Source of the DNA: a bacterium
Lineage (GTDB): Bacteria; Planctomycetota; Planctomycetia; Kolteriales; Kolteriaceae
NCBI GenBank assembly: GCA_019748235.1
Contig: JAIEPU010000197.1
Span: forward strand, 1 to 64,000
Length of the DNA stretch: 64,000 bases
Direction of reading: 5' to 3'
Shown here: one piece after another, positions 1 to 63,848 of the stretch
How the letters are laid out: each line of letters starts with the position of its first letter
Numbering within the stretch: the stretch's first letter is position 1
Program-made: the position numbers and the translations under genes
Notes under the pieces: generated by a model
What the model saw: the letters and a program-made list of their open reading frames with translations, nothing else
The model's database searches: none
Told to the model about the DNA's origin: nothing

Positions 1-244
<244 letters not shown>

Positions 245-320
245 AAGGAAACCGGTCGGCTCTCATACCGACCTACCTTCATCGGCATACGCAAGCAGAG
301 GCTATCCAATATCACAAGGG

Positions 321-358
321 CCCCAGCAGGTTTAACCACCTGCTGGGGTTACTTCGTT
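321..358 (+). terminator. Rho-independent terminator of the 16S rRNA
   Basis: There is a perfect 11-bp stem (321-331 with 338-348) around a 6-nt loop (332-337), followed by a T-rich stretch, TTACTTCGTTTC. It sits 77 nt after the 16S 3' end on the same strand and would end transcription before any 23S gene. Confidence 0.85.
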
Positions 359-564
359 TCTTGACCTCTCATCTCTTCGCCTCGCGATTCACTCCGTCCC
401 TGTCCGCAAGTTGCTGCTATGAACTTGGGCTCCGATCCTCACTGGCCGTCGGATCATGTTGAAGTCAATTCATCTCCAAACACGCGCGACTCACTTCGAC
501 GTCTTTACTGACTAGCGTCATCGATTTACACTCTGCTCAATCAAAGCAAGATTCTCATCTATTT
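359..564. other. Intergenic stretch with no gene seen
   Basis: Between the 16S terminator and the ribosome binding site of the next gene there is no convincing ORF, tRNA or repeat on either strand. It presumably holds the promoter of the small secreted protein at 577, but no clear -35/-10 pair could be assigned. Confidence 0.5.
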
Positions 565-576
565 CAGGAGCTTGAT

Positions 577-975
577 ATGTTTCGCTACATCGCCGTTCTT
601 TGTTTCTGCGTCGCTGGTGTCCAAACATCATTTGGCCAAGACACCACCGTCGCCAATGCACCTCCGGTCGTGGTAAAAACCACTCCGCAATCGGGTGCCA
701 TTGATGTTGATCCCGCGACGAAGGAGATTGTGGTTGTTTTCTCGAAGGAAATGAAGGACGGCTCTTGGTCTTGGTCGACGGCCGGTAAAAACAATTATCC
801 TGAGTCGGACGGAAAACCCACTTATCGTGCGGACAAGAAGTCGTGCGTTCTGCCAGTTAAACTTGAGCCGGGGAAAGATTATGCGATCTGGCTTAACTCC
901 GCGAAGTTCGGCAACTTCAAGGATGCTCATGGCAAGTCTGCAGTCCCATATCTTCTCGTATTTCGAACAAAGTAA
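577..975 (+). CDS. Small secreted protein with bacterial Ig-like domain
   Basis: This 132-residue protein has a typical Sec signal peptide (about residues 1-20, hydrophobic core IAVLCFCVAGV, ending SFGQ). The rest matches the pattern of Big_5/SbsA Ig-like domains: PPVVVKTTPQSGAIDVDP, then a VVVFSKEM strand and closing strands. Such domains are usually single modules of larger surface proteins, so a stand-alone copy is short. AGGAG at 566-570, 6 nt before the ATG, supports the start. The neighbours give no functional hint. It is probably periplasmic or cell-surface; ligand and role are unknown. Confidence 0.8.
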   Translation: MFRYIAVLCFCVAGVQTSFGQDTTVANAPPVVVKTTPQSGAIDVDPATKEIVVVFSKEMKDGSWSWSTAGKNNYPESDGKPTYRADKKSCVLPVKLEPGKDYAIWLNSAKFGNFKDAHGKSAVPYLLVFRTK

Positions 976-1034
976 TAAGTCGGCACGAATTCCGACACGT
1001 CGTTGCGGATCTGATTGCCCAACAACTCGGAATA

Positions 1035-1934
1035 TTATTTCTCACTATCGAGCTGCTTCTTTGCCTTCTTCAATGCGAGCTTCTGCTCAGCCGTGACCTT
1101 GGGATAAGAAAGTTCGAGCGACTGGATCGTGCGGGAAAGAATGTCGGCGACGGCCGCCCGCGCGATGTACTTCCGATCGGCGGGAATTACATACCAGGGA
1201 GCCCAAGGGGTACTCGTCGCTTTGATGGCGTCCTCGTATGCCTCCATATAGTCGTCCCAGTGCTGACGCTCTTCGACATCATGAATCGAAAACTTCCAAT
1301 TTTTGTCAGCCGTGTCGAGTCGCTCAAGAAACCGCTTCTTCTGCTCTTTCTTCGAAACGTTGAGGAAGAATTTGATGATCACCGTCCCGTTTCGAACGAG
1401 GTGCCGCTCGAACGAATTGATGTCCTCGTATCGCTCCTTCCACAGTGTTTTGTTCGGCTTTGCGTTTGGGACCCGTTGATTCGCAACGAGATCTTTGTGG
1501 ACCCTCACGACGAGAACATCCTCGTAATAAGAACGATTGAAAATCCCGATCCGCCCGCGCTCGGGAAGTGCCTTCATGCAACGCCAGAGAAAATTATGAT
1601 CGAGTTCTTCCGTCGTCGGGGTTTTGAAGCTGTAGACCTGGCAGCCTTGCGGATTCACGCCGGACATGACGTGCTTGATCGTGCCGTCTTTTCCAGCGGC
1701 ATCCATTGCCTGAAAGATCACAAGTACCGAATAAGTATCGCTGGCGTAAAGGAGATCTTGCGCCTCGGCGAGTTCCCGAATGTTCTTCTCGAGGATGTTT
1801 CGTGCGGTCTCTTTCAGGAACTCATCACCCAGTGCGGCGAGCGTCTTGGGAACCCAATTCGTTTTGTGATCTCGAAGCCGAAATCGCTTTCCGGGCCGAA
1901 TTAGAAAATGATTGACGATCTTCCCCTCGATCAT
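1035..1934 (-). CDS. Polyphosphate kinase 2 family (polyphosphate:nucleotide phosphotransferase)
   Basis: This 299-residue cytoplasmic protein belongs to the PPK2 family, which transfers phosphate between polyphosphate and nucleoside mono- or diphosphates. The Walker A-like loop QAMDAAGKDG is at about 75-84, the Walker B-like block GIFNRSYYEDVLVVRVH at about 130-146, and a lysine/arginine-rich lid (SKKEQKKRFLER) follows at about 196-207. Its length and the single domain fit the short PPK2 group related to TIGR03709, whose members often act on AMP or ADP; which nucleotide is used here cannot be told. GGAG 8 nt upstream supports the start. The gene is convergent with the Ig-like protein and stands alone. 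Confidence 0.93.
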   Translation of the reverse strand: MIEGKIVNHFLIRPGKRFRLRDHKTNWVPKTLAALGDEFLKETARNILEKNIRELAEAQDLLYASDTYSVLVIFQAMDAAGKDGTIKHVMSGVNPQGCQVYSFKTPTTEELDHNFLWRCMKALPERGRIGIFNRSYYEDVLVVRVHKDLVANQRVPNAKPNKTLWKERYEDINSFERHLVRNGTVIIKFFLNVSKKEQKKRFLERLDTADKNWKFSIHDVEERQHWDDYMEAYEDAIKATSTPWAPWYVIPADRKYIARAAVADILSRTIQSLELSYPKVTAEQKLALKKAKKQLDSEK

Positions 1935-2136
1935 GAGCTCGGCTCCAAGCGAAATGCCATTAGGTCAATCGTGTTCGTGAATCCTTCGACTATAGGCTAG
2001 CTTGAAGTCACGGGGGGAGGGGGAACCAAGGCGATTCTTGGAGTGATACGGACTATGAGAAATGCACGATCTCATTTCGAGAACGATTGCCGGCTCTCAG
2101 TCCGTCTGCGCCATCGGCAAGTCGGGTGACCGGAAT

Positions 2137-2982
2137 CTAATCGTCGTCTTGATCGGACGACGTGGCTCGTTGGGCGGCTTTCAACCGTTTGCCGATCTCA
2201 CGAATGCGATCTCGAACTTCGCGCATCGTTGAAGGTCGATAATCGGGATTGCAACGGATCATCTGGCGTACCAACTCATCTAGTTCGGGGGGGACGGCCT
2301 TGTTGAGCCGATGAAGCGGTGTCACGAAGTTGTCGAACGTTCCCAAGTCCGCTCCGCCACATTGCCGGATCTCGGGCGGTACCCCCCGGCCGGTCAAGGC
2401 ACGGTACATCGTCACGCCGAGATTGAAGGTGTCGGTTTTTCCATTCACGATCTTATTCTGGGCTTGCTCCGGCGCGAGATATTCAAGCGTCCCTTGCACG
2501 CGATCCTTACTCTCTCCTCGCCGCCACGCGAGGCCGAAATCGATGATTTTGACCTCCTTTTGCCGGCCAATCATGATGTTGTCCGGCTTGATGTCGGCAT
2601 GGTAAATCCCTTCCGAATGCATGTACGCCATGCCGTCGGCTACTTTGAAGAAGACGGAGAGAAGCTTCGTGATGGGCAGGCCTGGGCAATCGGCGAGCGC
2701 CATTCCGTCTACATATTCAAGCAAAAGACGAGCCCCCGAAACGAAGAGGAGCTTCTTCTGAAGGTCGATCGCGTGTGCTTTGAGCAAATAAGGATGGTTC
2801 AGGCCGTTCGCGATCGCATATTCGTTCTGTACCTGCTCGACGTACTTTTTGTCCTCGGACGATTCGACTTTCACGATCTTGAGCGCGTAGAACTTCGAGT
2901 CCGCCTCTCGGCGAACCTTATAGATTCGGCTACCAGCCCCCTGGCCGAGCTCGCCGACGATCGTGAACTTGCCGATATCCAT
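2137..2982 (-). CDS. Serine/threonine protein kinase (non-RD, cytoplasmic)
   Basis: This is a Hanks-type kinase of 281 residues that is nothing but the catalytic domain. The glycine-rich loop GELGQGAGSRIYKV is at about 10-23, the ATP-binding Lys is K35 (ALKI), the helix-C Glu is E54, the catalytic loop HADIKPDN is at 128-135, DFG at 148-150 and APE at 170-172. The usual HRD arginine is Ala, so it is a non-RD kinase, a type that often does not need activation-loop phosphorylation. There is no membrane segment or PASTA/sensor domain, unlike many planctomycete kinases. A GTG 33 nt further upstream is in frame, but the ATG used here has GAGG at a suitable distance. The substrate is unknown. Confidence 0.93.
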   Translation of the reverse strand: MDIGKFTIVGELGQGAGSRIYKVRREADSKFYALKIVKVESSEDKKYVEQVQNEYAIANGLNHPYLLKAHAIDLQKKLLFVSGARLLLEYVDGMALADCPGLPITKLLSVFFKVADGMAYMHSEGIYHADIKPDNIMIGRQKEVKIIDFGLAWRRGESKDRVQGTLEYLAPEQAQNKIVNGKTDTFNLGVTMYRALTGRGVPPEIRQCGGADLGTFDNFVTPLHRLNKAVPPELDELVRQMIRCNPDYRPSTMREVRDRIREIGKRLKAAQRATSSDQDDD

Positions 2983-3277
2983 TCGGAAATGCCTCGCATT
3001 ACGAAGGGCCGCCACCTATCTCGACAGTTTACCTTAAGACCCATGAAATAGTTTCTCTCAGTTTTGCTCTCGCAAAAATATTGCGGAGTCAGCCGACAAC
3101 AATCGATTCGTCGAACGGGAGTTTCTCCCGCCGAGACTGGTTTGTTTCCCGTGCATCAAAAGGAACGGAGTCGAATTTCCAGGCGAAAATGAAACAACAG
3201 GCGGATCCATCCGTCAGGCACGCCTCTTGCTTTTCACGACGAGTGGAAATGCTTCGGACCCTCCAGGAGCACCTCTC

Positions 3278-4978
3278 ATGTCCCTCGCCGATACTCCTCT
3301 CCCAGTCCCCGATGGGATGCTTCACCATACAAAATCACCGTCAGAGACTTTTCATTGGCATCAGTTGTTATCGACGCCGAACCCTTTTTATGTCCTCAGC
3401 GCTGCTCTGGTGTTGTTCGGCATTCGCATGTCGCTTCCTGCATCGCCGAGCTTCCATCAGGCAGTAATCATCTTTGCGATACTCGCTCTTTACACACTCT
3501 TGCTGACGGCATGCACCATCGCGGTGACACGAATCCTGCATGTGTGGGACGACGCCCGATCGCTCCTCTTAATACATCCCGTTCTCTTCTTCGCATTCTC
3601 GTCGCTGTTTGATGATCTTCTGATCGTGCGGCCGTTCGATGGTCAGTTGATTCTTTTAATCGGCGCGATCTTTTCGATCGGGTTGAGTGAAGTCGTCTTG
3701 CGCATTCTTCGAATCAAGCTTCGTATCGGCTATCGAGGGGTTTACTACCTGATCTTGATCATGCTCTTCGCTTACCCTTGCATCCTTGGTGCTTTCACTC
3801 GCGATTTTGATCATAAAGCCCATCGCCAAGTCGCGCTCAGTCTCTTCATTCCGATCATGTCGACTCTGTTTCTGCTTTTGATTCCGGCGATCCATAAAGG
3901 CAGGCCCTATGTTGAAGAGAATGGAACTCCGTACGGTTTCCCCTTATTTCCAATGTCACTCTTTGCACTTCTGATGCCGCTCGTGGCATTCAGAGCGTAC
4001 TGGCTTGCGCTCGCGTTCGGCCCGGGAATCAGGAACTCCGTTTGCCTAGAGCCGATGGCGTTCGTTCCGTTTGTCTTCGTCGCTGGGCTACTGCTGATCG
4101 AGCTTGGCGTCGTGACAAGGAATAAGGCGTTCGAATGGCTTTCTCTTAGTGTCGGGCCGGTTTGTCTCTTCCTTTACTCGCTGGAACCACCCGAGTATTT
4201 CGACCGCACCGTCGATATTTGGGCACCCACATTAACTCACACCATTCGATTGTCGCTCTTGTACTACAGTTGGGCTCGTGTGCGAGGAGTGACGGGAAGT
4301 CATGTTTTTCTGCTTATGCTGCTCGCGGCAATCGGATCACTCGATCGGCATGGTTTCCCAGGTATGTCTTCAAAGTGGCATCTCATTCCGTTCGTCACGG
4401 GTGCCATCATCGAACTGGCGATGGCTTTGAAGGGTCGCAGTTGGCCTCACATGATGAGCAGCTGTTTCTTCATGAGTTTGACGGCTGTTCCCATTGTCGC
4501 CAGTCATTGGCATAGGCACATGATTGACGTCCCTGAGGCACAACTCCTGTGGGGCATTGTCACTTTCGCGGCCGTGTGGCTGCTATTCATCACAACGCTT
4601 TTCGATCGTGAAACAGCCTCCTTCCCGCGAGCGATTGCAACGCTGGCGATGATCGGCAGTTTCGGGGGAACGCTGGTTTTGCATCCGAGTGAGTGGCTTC
4701 TGATCGCAGCTTACATCATTGGATTATTCATCTACGGCGTGTTGCTTCGCTACACACCCATTCTTTGGGCGGGGTGCGGTGGTATTGTTCTACTCGTTGC
4801 CTCTCGTTCGCAAGATCTGCTGATGCAACTTCGAAGAACTTTTCTCGGCAACGGCCTCGACTACCTGTTCCTCGGCTTGGCGTTCCTCATCGCCGGCCTC
4901 GTCTTCAGCGCGATCAAGTCGAGGGGAGTAAGGCACCTTGCAAAGCAGACTCATTCTCTCGGTGAGCCAGCGGAGTAG
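3278..4978 (+). CDS. Multi-pass membrane protein, unknown function
   Basis: This 566-residue protein is very hydrophobic, with roughly 13-15 predicted membrane segments spread evenly from about residue 40 to the end, joined by short loops. No transporter, kinase or glycosyltransferase motif was recognised. A histidine-rich short loop (SHWHRHM) occurs about two thirds along, and the C-terminal tail is short and polar. The start was chosen because AGGAG precedes it at a suitable distance; an in-frame ATG 51 nt upstream has no such site. The next gene starts 57 nt downstream on the same strand. It is probably a lineage-specific integral membrane protein. Confidence 0.8.
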   Translation: MSLADTPLPVPDGMLHHTKSPSETFHWHQLLSTPNPFYVLSAALVLFGIRMSLPASPSFHQAVIIFAILALYTLLLTACTIAVTRILHVWDDARSLLLIHPVLFFAFSSLFDDLLIVRPFDGQLILLIGAIFSIGLSEVVLRILRIKLRIGYRGVYYLILIMLFAYPCILGAFTRDFDHKAHRQVALSLFIPIMSTLFLLLIPAIHKGRPYVEENGTPYGFPLFPMSLFALLMPLVAFRAYWLALAFGPGIRNSVCLEPMAFVPFVFVAGLLLIELGVVTRNKAFEWLSLSVGPVCLFLYSLEPPEYFDRTVDIWAPTLTHTIRLSLLYYSWARVRGVTGSHVFLLMLLAAIGSLDRHGFPGMSSKWHLIPFVTGAIIELAMALKGRSWPHMMSSCFFMSLTAVPIVASHWHRHMIDVPEAQLLWGIVTFAAVWLLFITTLFDRETASFPRAIATLAMIGSFGGTLVLHPSEWLLIAAYIIGLFIYGVLLRYTPILWAGCGGIVLLVASRSQDLLMQLRRTFLGNGLDYLFLGLAFLIAGLVFSAIKSRGVRHLAKQTHSLGEPAE

Positions 4979-5035
4979 GAATGTGCTGAGCATCGGAAGT
5001 TCGATCGCTATTTCCCCTCGCGTGGAGATATCAAC

Positions 5036-5374
5036 GTGGAAAGGCCGCTGGTTGTTTATGTGGACGTCGATGAGACATTGATCCGCAATGTGAGTAGCAA
5101 AAGAATTCCAATCGGCGGTGTGATCAAGCATGTCCGGTCGTTGAAAGAACAAGGAGCGATTCTCTACTGCTGGAGCACGGGCGGGGCCGATTATGCGAAG
5201 CAGAGTGCAGATGAAGTCGGCCTTTCGGACTGCTTTGCTGGATACCTGCCAAAGCCGAACGTGTTGATTGATGATCAAGTGGTCAGCGAATGGCGAAGTT
5301 GTATGACGGTGCACCCCTTGAGTTGCGATGAACGAGGTGGCCGCGATTATCGAAAACAACTATTCCGCGAATAA
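5036..5374 (+). CDS. HAD-like domain protein
   Basis: This 112-residue protein opens with VVYVDVDETLI, the HAD motif I (DxDxT/S), in which the first Asp is the usual nucleophile. A later WSTGG segment fits motif II, and PNVLIDDQV near residue 80 fits motif IV acidic residues. It is shorter than typical HAD phosphatases and has no cap domain, resembling small HAD-like proteins related to magnesium-dependent or polynucleotide phosphatases. The start is GTG with GGAG about 8 nt before it; no ATG is available near the motif. Activity and substrate are unknown. Confidence 0.75.
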   Translation: MERPLVVYVDVDETLIRNVSSKRIPIGGVIKHVRSLKEQGAILYCWSTGGADYAKQSADEVGLSDCFAGYLPKPNVLIDDQVVSEWRSCMTVHPLSCDERGGRDYRKQLFRE

Positions 5375-5385
5375 ACGGTTAGCCA

Positions 5386-5619
5386 TTACTCATCAATGAT
5401 CTTTGTCACATCGCTTGAATTGCCGAACCGCTCGAGTGCTAACCCATACCTATCCAACTTGAGTAGCAATCCACCGGTTTCGAAACAGGAATAAGCTTTC
5501 GCGTCTTCTGTTCCGGGCGCAAAGATTTCGACCACCGTCCCGGAGTGCAGATCATCGATCAAAACTTTATCACCAACCGCGATGGGATTGCCCGAATCGG
5601 AGTAGTTCGGACTGATCAT
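5386..5619 (-). CDS. Small conserved-looking hypothetical protein
   Basis: This 77-residue protein has no recognised family. The middle (VGDKVLIDDLHSGTVVEIF) looks like a small beta-barrel or SH3-like fold. AGGAAG 6 nt before the ATG is a good ribosome binding site, and its base use matches its neighbours. It converges with the HAD-like gene at a distance of 11 nt. No signal peptide or membrane segment is seen. Confidence 0.6.
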   Translation of the reverse strand: MISPNYSDSGNPIAVGDKVLIDDLHSGTVVEIFAPGTEDAKAYSCFETGGLLLKLDRYGLALERFGNSSDVTKIIDE

Positions 5620-56668: not shown

Positions 56669-57445
56669 CTAACTCTTTTGTCCACGTCGCAACGCACGGT
56701 TCCGTTTGAAGTTGTTGAAGACTTGTTCCGCGACGAGTCCGACTTCACTAGCGAGTTGCTCGACACGCGCTCGATAGATCGCATACGCGCCAAGCGCCGG
56801 GATGCCGACGACAAGTCCTTCTACTGTCGTCACGAGCGCGAGATACACTCCACCCGCTAGATCGGAAGCGACGGCCGCGCCGTGGGTCTCCGCAATTGTC
56901 TTGAAGGCGAGCAAAATCCCGTACACCGTCCCGAGCAATCCGAGCATGGGGGCAAGGTTCGCAATCAGCGCGAGGTATTCCACCTTTCGAAAGAGTCGCG
57001 ATGCTTGCTCGTGGCTCGCATCCTCCATAGCCTTTTCAACCGCGCGATAGCCAAGCCTGACTTCCTGCAGCCCCGCCAGAACGACGTAGGAAAAGTAGCT
57101 TGGCTGTTGCTTGCAGAGAGCTTCCGCCTGAGCATACTCACCGGCAGTGATCTGTCGGTGCAATTCAGCGGGGAGTGTTTTGGGAATGAGCGCCCCTCGC
57201 CGAATTGTGATGGCATGTTCAATGATCAACGCCATGCCCGCCACGCTAAGGAGAATGATGATCGCGCCGATCGAGCCGCTCGCCTCGATCAACGTCCAGA
57301 CGGTCGCGGGGGGAGCTGTTTCTGAACTGTTGGCTGGTTTTTCACCCTCGACCTCTTGCGCGTGGAGAGGCGTTAACGTCATCAGACTGAAGAGGCAAAC
57401 GAATGTGACGAAGCGGATCCATCCGCGGCCGTGACGATCAGCCAT
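56669..57445 (-). CDS. MotA/TolQ/ExbB proton channel family protein
   Basis: This 258-residue protein has a signal-peptide-like first segment, a second membrane helix (GSIGAIIILLSVAGMALIIEH), and the C-terminal family domain LIANLAPMLGLLGTVYGIL and VYLALVTTVEGLVVGIPAL. These proteins form proton-driven stators for Tol, TonB or flagellar systems. It overlaps the upstream TPR gene by 8 nt and belongs with the VWA gene. No ExbD/TolR partner lies next to it, which is unusual. Confidence 0.92.
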   Translation of the reverse strand: MADRHGRGWIRFVTFVCLFSLMTLTPLHAQEVEGEKPANSSETAPPATVWTLIEASGSIGAIIILLSVAGMALIIEHAITIRRGALIPKTLPAELHRQITAGEYAQAEALCKQQPSYFSYVVLAGLQEVRLGYRAVEKAMEDASHEQASRLFRKVEYLALIANLAPMLGLLGTVYGILLAFKTIAETHGAAVASDLAGGVYLALVTTVEGLVVGIPALGAYAIYRARVEQLASEVGLVAEQVFNNFKRNRALRRGQKS

Positions 57446-58448
57446 TGGGTTTTCCCTTGTCCGGCAATCCTGCCAACTCGTTTTGTGCCTTCGTTGCCCA
57501 ATTGGAGCCGGGGTAAACCTGCACGACTTCTTTCAGGATCTTCTCCGCATCCTTGTCGAAGCCGGCTTGCTTGCTGGCGAGGCCCCCTTGCAGAAGAGCC
57601 TCGGCCGCGAGATCGGATCCGGGGTCGTAGACGTAAGGTATCCAAAGAAAGGCGAGGGCCGCCTCTTTATCTTGTCCCGCCTGTGCGAGAGCAGAGGCAT
57701 AGGCAAACTGCGGCCCGGTTCGAATGACCGAAGGCATTTTCTCAATCGCGGATTTCATCCGAGCGAGTTGATCGGGGGCCGCCTTCTCCGGCAGATTCCG
57801 CCAAAGCTGAGCGCGTGCCAAGAGGCCGACGCGCTGATCGACGGTTTGAAGCTCATCGAGAACGGTGCGGGGATCGCCGGTCGGAGTGCTGTTGAGAAGC
57901 CAGCTTGCCGCGAGCAGTTTGGCGATCGGCTTGGAATCGGTGAGCCATTGCTTCGCGAGGGTCAGGCTGGAATCGGAAATGTTCTCATCCTTCGTCCAGA
58001 CCAGCGGTGCGAGGAGAAGGACATCGACATCTTTTCGATCTTCGAAAATCGGCAAAAAGATTCGAGCGGCCTCGTCAAGCTGCCCCTTACGGCGAAACGC
58101 CTTGATCAGGCCTGCGCGAATCTGGTGAAGCGCCCACGGCCTCTTCTCTGATGCGAGGGCCTTTTGGAAAGCGGCAATTGCCTTGTCATCGTCACGCCGA
58201 TGGAGCGCGTCGGTTCCTTCGAGTTGGGCGGGTGATCGCTGAGCTTCCACCTTCTTTATGTCGGCGAGCGGGTAACGGACCTCTCGCTGAGATTCGAGGC
58301 GAATGCTCAATCCGCGTTCGTCCCACTCCAAAATCTCTCCCGCGATGCGGGCGCCGTTGTTAAGAACCACCGCCTCGGCAGCAACAAGCGGACCGGCGGC
58401 AAGCAGAAGAATTAGGGCGAAGAAGCGGGTCAAATAACCGATCGGCAT
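57438..58448 (-). CDS. Secreted tetratricopeptide-repeat protein
   Basis: This 336-residue protein has a signal peptide (FFALILLLAAGPLVAAE), a short SH3-like N-terminal region (VLNNGARIAGEILEWDERGL; Hfq-like or DUF-type strand pattern) and helical repeats with TPR spacing over about 85-330 (DKAIAAFQKALASEKRP, AAEALLQGGLASKQAGF, KILKEVVQVYPGSNWA). TPRs mediate protein contacts. It starts 7 nt after the VWA stop and overlaps the TolQ-like gene by 8 nt, so the three are one operon. Confidence 0.87.
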   Translation of the reverse strand: MPIGYLTRFFALILLLAAGPLVAAEAVVLNNGARIAGEILEWDERGLSIRLESQREVRYPLADIKKVEAQRSPAQLEGTDALHRRDDDKAIAAFQKALASEKRPWALHQIRAGLIKAFRRKGQLDEAARIFLPIFEDRKDVDVLLLAPLVWTKDENISDSSLTLAKQWLTDSKPIAKLLAASWLLNSTPTGDPRTVLDELQTVDQRVGLLARAQLWRNLPEKAAPDQLARMKSAIEKMPSVIRTGPQFAYASALAQAGQDKEAALAFLWIPYVYDPGSDLAAEALLQGGLASKQAGFDKDAEKILKEVVQVYPGSNWATKAQNELAGLPDKGKPNG

Positions 58449-58455
58449 GCGTTCG

Positions 58456-59457
58456 TTACTCCGTGGAGGCCGGGTTCCCAACCGAGGGACCGAAGCCCAT
58501 CACATTCAAATAACTGTAAGTTCCGTCATTGTCGGCCGACAGTCGCCGGAGCGGTTTGTTCGATGACAGATTCGGCCCGTTGCCGAACTCGATCGAGAAG
58601 ACGGTCGCCGGAATACGGGCTTGCCGGTTCAGCGTCGTCAGCTTGTTCACGTCCTCGTCGGACAACATGTCCGCGTCCGTCAGATAGTAAACCACTTCTG
58701 GCTTCAAGCCGAAAGCGAGAACAAGCGGCTTGACGTGATTCGTCCCTCCTTCAGGAAGGATTTTACTGATCTCTTTCTTTGCCCTCGACTTGTTGATTTG
58801 AGTCGCTTCGACGAGCTTGCCATCCCCCAGTGGGATCAAAAATGCCTCGGTGTTGTAAAACACGACCTGAAACTTGCTCTTCTCCTCGAGCTGATCAATC
58901 GCCTGATAGAGCTCTTGCTTGGCAAGCTCGAGCGTTCCCCGGTGAGACATGCTAGCCGAACGATCGATGACAAAAACAAAACTGGTGCCGGTCGCTTCCA
59001 CCTTCCAAAAGGTGGTCTTACTCATCGCACTAGAAGGAGCACTCGTCACCTTCGGCAAGTTGGTTCCTTCCGCCGAGGATGCCCCTCCCGCGATCAAGAT
59101 AAGGGGCGTTTCCAAATGGGGTAGGGGAGTGTCCCCCTTCGTCCCTGGTGAATCCGGCTGGACCTTGTCGAACTCCGTGTCCGGAGATTCTTTCGCTTGC
59201 GGGCGCTCGTGATAGGTCTGCTCAGGGTTTTTGTAAACGACCTCGCTGTCCTGTTCGCTTTTGAGGATGATGCCGACCTCTCGCGCGTCGCTGTCATCTT
59301 TCACAGGAAGCCCTCGCGCGATGCGAGGAATGCTAATCAACAGAGCCGCGAGAATGCTGGCATGAAATAGAATCGATAGCAGCCACGTTGGGATCAATAG
59401 TTTCCCCGCCCGACGCGTCGGGTCCGCCGCTGCCAATCGATCGAATAACTCGCTCAT
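58456..59457 (-). CDS. Membrane-anchored VWA-domain protein
   Basis: This 333-residue protein has a cytoplasmic N-terminus, one membrane helix (LLSILFHASILAALLISI, about 24-41), a Pro/Glu-rich periplasmic linker and a C-terminal von Willebrand A domain from about 155. The VWA metal site is intact (FVIDRSASMS), with later TNHVKP and YYLTDADML segments. The layout resembles a TonB/TolA-like protein whose end is a VWA domain. It is first in the operon with the TPR and TolQ-like genes. A structured repeat begins 36 nt upstream of its start, and the start has only a weak binding site. Confidence 0.9.
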   Translation of the reverse strand: MSELFDRLAAADPTRRAGKLLIPTWLLSILFHASILAALLISIPRIARGLPVKDDSDAREVGIILKSEQDSEVVYKNPEQTYHERPQAKESPDTEFDKVQPDSPGTKGDTPLPHLETPLILIAGGASSAEGTNLPKVTSAPSSAMSKTTFWKVEATGTSFVFVIDRSASMSHRGTLELAKQELYQAIDQLEEKSKFQVVFYNTEAFLIPLGDGKLVEATQINKSRAKKEISKILPEGGTNHVKPLVLAFGLKPEVVYYLTDADMLSDEDVNKLTTLNRQARIPATVFSIEFGNGPNLSSNKPLRRLSADNDGTYSYLNVMGFGPSVGNPASTE

Positions 59458-59492: not shown

Positions 59493-59695
59493 GGGTGGTC
59501 CCGATAACTTGTTATCAGGGTTGCGAAGCAACAAGAGGGGGAGATTCTTTAACTGTGACCCCCTCGAACATTCGAGTTGCCGCATCCTCAATGTTGAGTG
59601 GGCGAGTGTTGATCAATTATGAAAATCCTTTCTTGCGAACGATCCGCGCCCTCTTGTGCCTTCGGCATCCAGGCAACGAGTTGCCTGGACCACCC
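59493..59695. repeat. Structured interspersed repeat, full copy B
   Basis: This 203-bp element starts GGGTGGTCCCGATAAC and ends TTGCCTGGACCACCCC. The left arm folds as GATAAC/GTTATC, then GTTGC-GAA-GCAAC. The right arm folds as GCC-TTC-GGC, then CCAGGCAAC/GTTGCCTGG. The interior shares a core beginning TCGAGTTGCCGCATCCTCAA with copies C and D. It lies between the divergent VWA and AhpD-like genes. Confidence 0.9.
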
Positions 59696-59720: not shown

Positions 59721-59770
59721 GGGTGGCCCCGACAACTCGTTGTCGGGGTTGCGAAGCAACAAGAGGGGGG
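59721..59770. repeat. Structured repeat, lone left arm
   Basis: These 50 bp match only the left arm of the element (GACAAC/GTTGTC stem, then GTTGC-GAA-GCAAC and a G-run). They are joined to copy B by a 25-bp linker starting CGAATAGGAGAGTTAATC that is nearly identical to the linker before copy C. The right arm is missing. The remaining bases to 60016 hold no gene. Confidence 0.8.
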
Positions 59771-60016: not shown

Positions 60017-60544
60017 ATGAGTCGTATCAAGCCGCTCGAATACGAAGAGGCCTCCCCCGAATCGAAGAAGCTTTGGGACGATCAGATCGCCCGGTACGGC
60101 CGCATTACCAACATGAAGCGGACGCTTGCCCGTTCGGCTCCGGCGCTCTCGGCCTATATGGAATGGTACACACTGAAAGACACCGTCACTCCGTTCCTCG
60201 GCGATCGGCTCACGTATCTTTTTTCGCATGCGATCTCGACCCAATCGAACTGCCTGATTTGCGGCACCTTCTTTCGAAGGATTCTCATCGATGCCGGCGA
60301 AAATCCCGACGATCTCAAGCTCAGTGAGCGCGAGCAACTCGTCGTCGATTTCGGCGCACTCATCTCAAAGAACGCGTGGGATATTTCTGATCCTTTCTTC
60401 GACCGATTGAAGAAAGAGTTCAGCGATGATCAGATTCTGGCGATGACCGCCTTTGCCGGGCTGATGGTCGCGACCAACATCATCAACAATGTGCTGCATG
60501 TCGACTTGGACGAGTATCTTCTCCCCTATGCGAAGAAAGGTTAA
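60017..60544 (+). CDS. AhpD-like/carboxymuconolactone decarboxylase-family protein
   Basis: This 175-residue helical protein resembles AhpD/CMD-family peroxidase-type proteins. The region HAISTQSNCLICGTFFRR at about 74-91 has a CxxC pair (Cys-Leu-Ile-Cys) where AhpD carries its redox cysteines. The usual His two residues after the second Cys is Thr, which lowers confidence in peroxidase activity. AGAGGGA precedes the ATG. The SDR gene starts 2 nt after its stop, so the two form an operon, perhaps a small redox pathway. Confidence 0.82.
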   Translation: MSRIKPLEYEEASPESKKLWDDQIARYGRITNMKRTLARSAPALSAYMEWYTLKDTVTPFLGDRLTYLFSHAISTQSNCLICGTFFRRILIDAGENPDDLKLSEREQLVVDFGALISKNAWDISDPFFDRLKKEFSDDQILAMTAFAGLMVATNIINNVLHVDLDEYLLPYAKKG

Positions 60545-60546
60545 TC

Positions 60547-61353
60547 ATGGACCTCGGCCTCAAGGGGAAAGTCGTTTTCATTACCGGCGCGGCGCACGGC
60601 CAAGGGCGAGCGACCGCGCTTGCCTTTGCGAAAGAGGGGGCCCACGTCGCCGCTCTCGATGTCGCCAAGCAACTCGCTTACCCGACTTATGCGCTCGGAA
60701 CGAATGATGAATTGAATACGCTCGCCAAAGAGTGTGAAACGCTCGGCGTTCGATGTGTCCCCCTCGTAGCGGATGTGCGTGATGAAAAGGGAGTGGCCGC
60801 GGCTGTCGATAAAGCGGTTCGTGAACTGGGCCGAATCGACATTCTCTTCAACAACGCTGGCATCTGCTTTTATGGACTTTCGCATGAACTGACCGAGGAG
60901 GCGTGGGATGCCATGCTCGACGTGAATTTGAAAGGGGCATGGATCGTCGGCAAGCACGTCATCCCGCACATGATCCGTCAAAAGTCGGGAGTGATCGTTA
61001 ATAACTCGTCCATTGCCGGCATGCGGGGGATGAATCGTCTGAGCCATTATGCCGCGTCGAAGTTCGGATTGATCGGCCTGACGAAGTCATGGGCGATCGA
61101 GCTCGCCCCGCACGGCATTCGTTCTCTCTCCATTCATCCGACCGGTGTCAACACACCGATGAATGACGGCCTAGCGGCGATGGAGGGTGCGACTCCGCTG
61201 GAAATCGCGGAGCGCTCCGCGGGGAACCTGCTCCCCGTTCCCTGGCTCGAGCCATCGGACGTCGCGAGTTCCGTTCTGTTTCTAGCCTCAGACCATTCCC
61301 GATACGTCACCGGCTCTCAACACGTCATCGACGCCGGCCTGCTGACGCGGTAG
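60547..61353 (+). CDS. Short-chain dehydrogenase/reductase
   Basis: This 268-residue SDR has an NAD-binding VFITGAAHGQGRATALAFA, LFNNAG, catalytic NSSIAG and YAASK (Tyr-x3-Lys intact), and C-terminal GSQHVIDAG. The TGAAHGQGR variant and an insert after the second strand resemble the SDR group often linked with mycofactocin or carveol-type alcohols, but no mycofactocin genes are here. It is encoded with the AhpD-like protein. The substrate is unknown. Confidence 0.92.
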   Translation: MDLGLKGKVVFITGAAHGQGRATALAFAKEGAHVAALDVAKQLAYPTYALGTNDELNTLAKECETLGVRCVPLVADVRDEKGVAAAVDKAVRELGRIDILFNNAGICFYGLSHELTEEAWDAMLDVNLKGAWIVGKHVIPHMIRQKSGVIVNNSSIAGMRGMNRLSHYAASKFGLIGLTKSWAIELAPHGIRSLSIHPTGVNTPMNDGLAAMEGATPLEIAERSAGNLLPVPWLEPSDVASSVLFLASDHSRYVTGSQHVIDAGLLTR

Positions 61354-61476: not shown

Positions 61477-61684
61477 GGGTGGCCCCGGCAACTCGTTGCC
61501 GGGGTTGCGCAGCAACGAGAGGGGAACATGAGAGAATTGAGACGTATTCGATCATTCGAGTTGCTGCAGCCTCAATACTGAGTTGGTGAGCGTTGATCGA
61601 TCGTCGAGAGCATCGTTCGTTGCGAATGAATCGCCCCCTCTTCTGCCTTCGGCACCCAGGCAAACGAGTTGCCTGGGCCACCCC
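61477..61684. repeat. Structured interspersed repeat, full copy C
   Basis: This 208-bp element starts GGGTGGCCCCGGCAAC and ends GCCTGGGCCACCCC. The left stem is GGCAAC/GTTGCC and the second hairpin GTTGC-GCA-GCAAC. The right arm has GCC-TTC-GGC and CCCAGGCAA/TTGCCTGGG. Its interior shares the core TTCGAGTTGCTGCAGCCTCA with copies B and D. It lies after the SDR gene. Confidence 0.92.
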
Positions 61685-63640: not shown

Positions 63641-63848
63641 GGGTGGCCCCGGCAACTCGTTGCCGGGGTTGCGCAGCAACAAGAGGGGGACATTCTTTAG
63701 CCGTGATGCAAACGAACACTTGAGTTGCCGCAGCCTGAGTGTTGAGTTGGTGAGTGTTGATTGATCAATGATGAGCATCGTTTCTTGCGGACGAACCGCA
63801 CCCTCTTGTGCCTTCGGCACCCAGGCAAAAAAGTTGCCTGGGCCACCC
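63641..63848. repeat. Structured interspersed repeat, full copy D
   Basis: This 208-bp element is nearly identical to copy C at both arms (GGGTGGCCCCGGCAAC start, GCCTGGGCCACCC end). The core is TTGAGTTGCCGCAGCCTGAG. The last hairpin loop is A-rich (CCCAGGCAAAAAAGTTGCC). It lies downstream of the DUF1559 terminator. Confidence 0.92.

Follow-up and report, generated by a model that had tools for sequence, protein, structure and literature searches.

A stretch of 64,000 nucleotides (hereafter the window; positions 1 to 64,000 of contig JAIEPU010000197.1, assembly GCA_019748235.1) from a planctomycete of the family Kolteriaceae carries three genes on its minus strand that encode a VWA protein of the force-transducer kind, a TPR protein and a channel protein of the ExbB/TolQ type. 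The VWA gene stands first (58456-59457, 333 aa; supported by its open reading frame, Pfam and an AlphaFold2 (AF2) model), followed by the TPR gene (57438-58448, 336 aa from an ATG start, with the frame also open from a TTG at 58481) and the ExbB gene (56669-57445, 258 aa; open reading frame and Pfam). Only 7 bases separate the VWA stop from the TPR ATG, and the TPR frame runs 8 bases into that of ExbB. The open reading frames and a PF02472 profile search of the genome's contigs revealed no ExbD adjoining this triad, and the next gene behind ExbB encodes an unrelated metallophosphoesterase (Pfam). An earlier note on this DNA, which had placed the three genes correctly, was therefore also right that no ExbD lies next to them. 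The triad is internal to a contig of 71,797 bases in a draft genome of 326 contigs with 89.8% completeness. Below, C denotes a contig, L an examined locus and G a genome; G001 and G002 are two other genomes examined from the same family.

The VWA protein is matched by Pfam VWA_3 (PF13768) at 34.1 bits (cut-off 27). Its AF2 model, for which, as for the other window proteins, relatives drawn from 80 titled loci were aligned, consists of three parts: an anchor helix at about residues 24-41, a structureless linker of low confidence at about 44-143 and a confident VWA domain at about 145-322. Residues D165-x-S167-x-S169, T239 and D261, which we take to be the metal site, are all five kept in 40/40 VWA proteins. 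The model also matches solved VWA proteins, namely inter-alpha-inhibitor heavy chain 1 (E = 6.1e-11) and 4fx5 (E = 1.1e-10). The anchor helix carries the motif S28-x3-H32, spaced as in TonB and TolA, and L39 is likewise in register. S28 is kept in 39/40 and H32 in 37/40 VWA proteins; two alignments (A2 and A3) comprised 31 and 32 of the 80 titled loci, each together with the window protein, and both residues are invariant (33/33) in the chosen alignment. Upstream of residue 145 the other positions kept at a level of at least 85% among the 40 proteins are only M1, P113 and position 123. The corresponding residues of TonB (Ser16/His20) and TolA (Ser18/His22) touch ExbB and TolQ on the outside of the pentamer, according to PMC12215075. 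Helix 24-41 of the window protein contains no Asp or Glu, which argues against a helix of the pore type. None of the six Pfam matches up to E = 1 is a TonB or TolA model, and a C-terminal domain of that type is thus lacking. The Ser-x3-His helix together with the VWA domain agrees with the proposed TonB/TolA-like, membrane-anchored protein. At one locus (L102 in G104) a VWA gene at 4509-5585 lies 5' of ExbB-ExbD-ExbD on the same strand, and its helix has Ala and Gln instead of Ser-x3-His, possibly reflecting a different mode of coupling.

For the middle protein, Pfam TPR models match below their cut-offs only. The AF2 model (mean pLDDT 92.5) starts with a short hydrophobic N-terminal helix that by eye appears to be a signal peptide, in line with the predicted secreted TPR partner. 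A five-strand barrel (about 25-68) that looks SH3/Sm-like comes next, and then a helical-repeat solenoid (about 73-326). Its neighbours among solved structures are general TPR proteins (BamD, consensus TPR; best E 3.5e-4, with poor superposition), and since they are generic no function can be deduced from them. The third protein is matched by Pfam MotA_ExbB (PF01618) at 89 bits (cut-off 22.9) and also seems by eye to begin with a signal peptide, in line with the proton-channel protein previously described. T173, T207 and P216 align with T148, T181 and P190 of E. coli ExbB, and S67 in the first transmembrane helix was paired with E. coli S34 by eye only. Among 83 ExbBs, a set that takes in paralogues down to 280 bits, these positions are kept almost without exception (T173, T207 and S67 in 83/83; P216 in 82/83).

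The order VWA-TPR-ExbB is also present in G001 and G002, and elsewhere in the class it commonly continues as VWA-TPR-ExbB-ExbD1-ExbD2, often with a further TPR-like gene after ExbD2, named BIGT in what follows, whose product has about 840 residues. Blastopirellula marina (L137), for example, has all six genes in one operon. VWA matches at E <= 1e-10 occur in 240/297 searched genomes of the class, and ExbB matches at E <= 1e-20 in 140/148, many of the latter being paralogues. A locus counted as a triad when same-strand VWA and TPR frames ended no more than 3.5 kb upstream of ExbB; genes were labelled by means of profiles built up from proteins of the window and of its own genome. The examined stretches, which were not random but picked from the VWA and ExbB hit lists and the 80 titled loci, contain 57 triad loci, corresponding to 54 distinct ExbBs. 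ExbD lies directly behind ExbB in 46 of the 50 distinct triads with at least 1.2 kb downstream (two ExbDs in 42, one in 4), and is missing there in 4; the four shorter loci left out have one ExbD (one locus) or two (three loci).

The four triads lacking ExbD behind them are those of the window genome, G001, G002 and a Mariniblastus record (L150), and an ExbD1-ExbD2-BIGT block occurs elsewhere in every one of these genomes: on C181 of the window genome (L021), C38 of G001 (L069), C1 of G002 near 6.167 Mb (L074) and C83 of Mariniblastus (L198). No ExbB is recognisable beside any of these blocks. On C181 a divergent gene precedes the pair at a distance of 124 bases, leaving no room for a hidden ExbB. 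The C181 ExbDs match PF02472 at 67 and 70 bits; the five best matches of ExbD1 are operon ExbD1s (37-40% identity), the five best of ExbD2 are operon ExbD2s (35-42% identity), and the 843-aa protein encoded next to them matches the gene behind ExbD2 of other genomes. The unlinked exbD, co-occurring with the triad in the family genomes, could thus be traced. A tree of 77 ExbDs groups the D1s of the three family genomes together (99/92), nested in a clade with 25 operon D1s (98/89); their D2s also form a clade (100/98), nested in one with 25 operon D2s (100/98). The remaining 13 ExbDs from these genomes fall outside both operon clades. The membrane aspartate is present in 77/77 ExbDs, including the C181 pair. 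The Mariniblastus pair was assigned not from the tree but from profile scores (D1 234 bits and D2 169, well above what the genome's remaining ExbDs reach) and its BIGT neighbour. Because the six-gene operon is intact in another Mariniblastus record (L183), the split in this genus is probably recent and independent. In the Kolteriaceae the operon was, most simply, split between ExbB and ExbD1 before the three genomes diverged, and the same split in G002, a genome of one contig, excludes an artefact of fragmentation.

The pairing of motor genes within the window genome is consistent with this history. PF02472 identifies five ExbDs (one on C137, two on C300 and two on C181) and PF01618 seven places (C137, C300, the window, C180 and three remote ones). 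The ExbBs of C137 and C300 adjoin their own ExbDs and that of C180 adjoins a gene that is MotB-like by eye, so that among the examined motor genes only the window ExbB and the C181 ExbD pair are without a neighbouring partner. C180, G001:C4:16370 and G002:C1:25326 were considered as alternative ExbB partners and rejected, as they lie beside genes judged MotB-like by eye, no family search having been run. The ExbB-ExbD pair of C137 (positions 1-5191, L019) is a separate one, with a 952-residue TPR-like protein before it and, behind it, a truncated gene whose product has a hydrophobic segment and a proline-rich stretch and is possibly TonB-like.

The window triad therefore very probably represents the first half of a proton-driven envelope machine encoded by six genes, whose operon was split between ExbB and ExbD1, with ExbD1-ExbD2-BIGT on C181 as its other half. 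In such a machine, an ExbB pentamer would surround two different ExbD subunits, and proton flow would move this mixed ExbD axle. Given the Ser-x3-His motif, the kept pore threonines and the ExbD aspartate, the VWA protein should dock with its Ser-His helix on the side of the ExbB-ExbD motor, outside the pentamer, as TonB and TolA do. The linker would then carry the VWA domain through the periplasm to a partner, which may be gripped via the metal site, with TPR and BIGT as putative periplasmic adaptors.

Machines of this general kind have been described in Planctomycetes, where vWA motor-driven force transducers are encoded with a TolQ-like and two TolR-like genes, as set out in PMC12204202 (Mol Biol Evol 2025), on which the following comparisons draw; the suggestion of a new variant of the Tol/Ton theme is thereby superseded. 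That paper also distinguishes a second family, which has no tolR/exbD and carries an Asp in the membrane helix. Judged from its sequence the window system belongs with the first family: its VWA protein has both a disordered linker some 100 residues long (AF2 model, about 44-143) and a C-terminal vWA domain (Pfam above cut-off and structure matches). It differs in that the tolR/exbD pair is encoded away from the adjacent TPR and tolQ-like genes and together with BIGT, in that VWA comes first rather than last in gene order, and in having the large sixth protein BIGT, one TPR gene being named in the passages of that text. Three points are added here: the operon is split, breaks at the ExbB/ExbD1 junction recur in other lineages, and BIGT travels along as a sixth component. 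A further paper on the vWA machine was not found among the matches listed.

Other motors offer partial parallels. The system shares with Ton (TonB-ExbB-ExbD) and Tol (TolA-TolQ-TolR) the pore threonines, the ExbD aspartate and the Ser-His docking motif, but VWA replaces the C-terminal domain of TonB/TolA, the two ExbDs are different, TPR and BIGT are added, and Trp38 and Glu176 are not kept. One channel protein with two different MotB/ExbD-like proteins is likewise found in the AglR-AglQ-AglS gliding motor of Myxococcus xanthus, as parts of PMC9389320 describe it, although there is no sign of gliding here and the likeness is one of description. The N-terminal signal-peptide-like segment and the extension before the first transmembrane helix recall the long ExbB of Serratia marcescens, which has a cleaved signal peptide; unlike the window protein, however, it serves a TonB/HasB system, according to sections of PMC9008036. 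In Rhodopirellula baltica, exbB RB12053 and exbD RB12055, which may or may not belong to such a six-gene operon, are reported to be salt-induced (PMC2754498).

Several readings other than a split six-gene machine have to be considered. The lack of an adjacent ExbD in the window and in both family relatives could mean that the VWA protein replaces ExbD by inserting its membrane helix into the ExbB pentamer, in the manner of the second vWA family. We regard this as very unlikely, given that helix 24-41 is free of Asp/Glu and bears the side-docking Ser-x3-His, and that the displaced ExbD pair keeps its Asp. The second family, as characterised in PMC12204202, lacks the Ser-His motif (SHLS), has the Asp and mostly consists of vWA pairs; the window VWA protein shows neither the membrane-helix Asp nor an absence of the motif. 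An altogether ExbD-free motor, as the earlier note had it, was rejected once the ExbD1-ExbD2 pair was found on C181, since the matches and the tree indicate that the pair was only moved by rearrangement. Even less credible is that the missing ExbD results from draft assembly or binning, as the 326 contigs might suggest, because the triad is internal to its contig with a gene behind ExbB and the single-contig G002 is split in the same way.

A somewhat less improbable alternative, but still an unlikely one, is that the C181 ExbD pair serves another ExbB and that the window ExbB is idle or a structural remnant. The two halves do lie on different contigs, and ExbDs might be shared, since Ton and Tol motors cross-complement (reported in a portion of PMC12215075). 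However, the strong-scoring ExbB-like genes have partners of their own (ExbD on C137 and C300, MotB-like by eye on C180), the pore threonines and proline are retained in the window ExbB, and the tree links the C181 pair to operon ExbDs, the three remote ExbB-like frames being outside this comparison.

Some observations weigh against a split six-gene machine with a side-docked VWA protein. The three remote MotA_ExbB-like frames (34-37 bits, on C322, C179 and C204) were left outside the pairing, and in a draft of this completeness motor genes may be missing. In G001 only about 220 bases of contig lie upstream of ExbD1, too few to exclude an ExbB there by position. The last Ser of the SHLS motif is at 42 instead of the expected 43, one residue off. 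If S67 is equated by eye with S34, the TonB-contacting Trp38 of E. coli corresponds to Met71 of the window ExbB (mostly Val/Ala in the family), and the position of Glu176, an important residue of E. coli ExbB, is Leu202 (mostly Gln, Leu or Lys); the docking surface and the pore therefore seem to differ in part. Moreover, no phenotype came to light for any member: the terms ExbB, ExbD, TolQ, von Willebrand and biopolymer are absent from the main texts of the essential-gene papers on Planctopirus limnophila and Verrucomicrobium spinosum (PMC10632474 and PMC12283558).

The operon has been broken in other ways as well. VWA-TPR lies apart from ExbB-ExbD-ExbD in G011, G143 and G058, and 10 kb from it in G123, while VWA lies apart from TPR-ExbB-ExbD-ExbD in G145 and G115. 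The idea that the three genes form one conserved set is accordingly upheld by the recurrence of their order at 57 loci, but not by these genomes, in which they separate. VWA-TPR-BIGT is found without a motor gene in the stretch at L133 and L135; at L107 the only motor genes near it are an ExbB-ExbD-ExbD set, lower-scoring and divergent, at a distance of 2.5 kb. Eight ExbB-hit stretches (L088, L091, L093, L096, L097, L098, L099 and L103) have no VWA, TPR or ExbD label beside ExbB and do not fit a simple picture. For four of them (L088, L091, L093 and L099, in G084, G127, G072 and G093, respectively), ExbDs encoded elsewhere in the genome have their highest scores against the operon profiles for ExbD1 and ExbD2, and no ExbB occurs within the 3.4 kb examined around these displaced genes; BIGT comes after them in G093, and ExbD1 and ExbD2 are on two contigs in G127. 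At L097, L098 and L103 an ExbB-type gene lies directly behind two genes for large, GTPase-like proteins (by eye), and nothing in the stretch was labelled as ExbD; these loci are of a different kind, and L096 is similar. These three loci, and probably L096, are candidates for an ExbB without ExbD, unlike that of the window.

A second arrangement, ExbB-ExbD-ExbD-gap-VWA, is seen at L064-L067 and in Aquisphaera (L118) and Paludisphaera (L146). Homologues of TPR or BIGT were not detected in L064-L067 at E <= 1e-10, nor among the larger plus-strand frames of L064-L066 at E <= 10. The next gene there encodes a large membrane protein that by eye is proton pyrophosphatase-like (L065:9204-11873 and L064:9690-12347).

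BIGT is recognised by Pfam TPR models above cut-off in the window genome and G001, while the Blastopirellula BIGT has no match at all. In three stretches (L015, L016 and L152) it adjoins VWA without a motor gene, indicating that BIGT is tied to VWA as well as to ExbD. L015 belongs to the window genome itself (C293:777-1877), where the gene of a second VWA protein with a Ser-x3-His helix precedes a BIGT-like gene that is truncated at the contig end; another BIGT-like piece at C45:1-1704 (L206) is possibly its remainder. L016 of G002 likewise has VWA and BIGT, with no motor genes labelled in either locus.

Around the window triad, a divergent pair upstream of the VWA gene (60017-61353) encodes carboxymuconolactone-decarboxylase-like and short-chain-dehydrogenase-like proteins, both named by eye; the same pair is present in G001 (L013:6482-8176) and was not seen in the G002 stretch. 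Short intergenic repeats occur at 59518-59531, 59746-59759, 61502-61515 and 63666-63679 with neighbours, several of them clustered upstream of the VWA gene. The repeat TTGCTTCGCAACCC has 7 matches with at most 2 mismatches where 0.53 are expected, and CAACTCGTTGCCTGG has 5 where 0.09 are expected; they look like a dispersed element of the REP (repetitive extragenic palindrome) type.

Taken further, the machine could tentatively be seen as a pair of modules that re-assort, with VWA-TPR-ExbB providing transducer and channel, ExbD1-ExbD2-BIGT providing axle and scaffold, and the ExbB/ExbD1 junction between them broken several times independently. Motor-less VWA-BIGT or VWA-TPR-BIGT sets, for instance the C293 pair, might then plug into a shared motor, so that one proton motor would drive several VWA transducers with BIGT as an unrecognised periplasmic part. 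Independent breaks in the window family, Mariniblastus and the lone-ExbB genomes would then suggest selection for separate control. We consider this extended scheme rather doubtful as a whole. A false exception, a TolQ/ExbB motor without ExbD, is removed by our analysis, with a lesson on split operons. The recurrent ExbB/ExbD1 break, BIGT and the motor-less VWA-BIGT sets are worth keeping in view, and the displaced half, BIGT and the conserved docking residues offer definite targets for knock-out in tractable planctomycetes.
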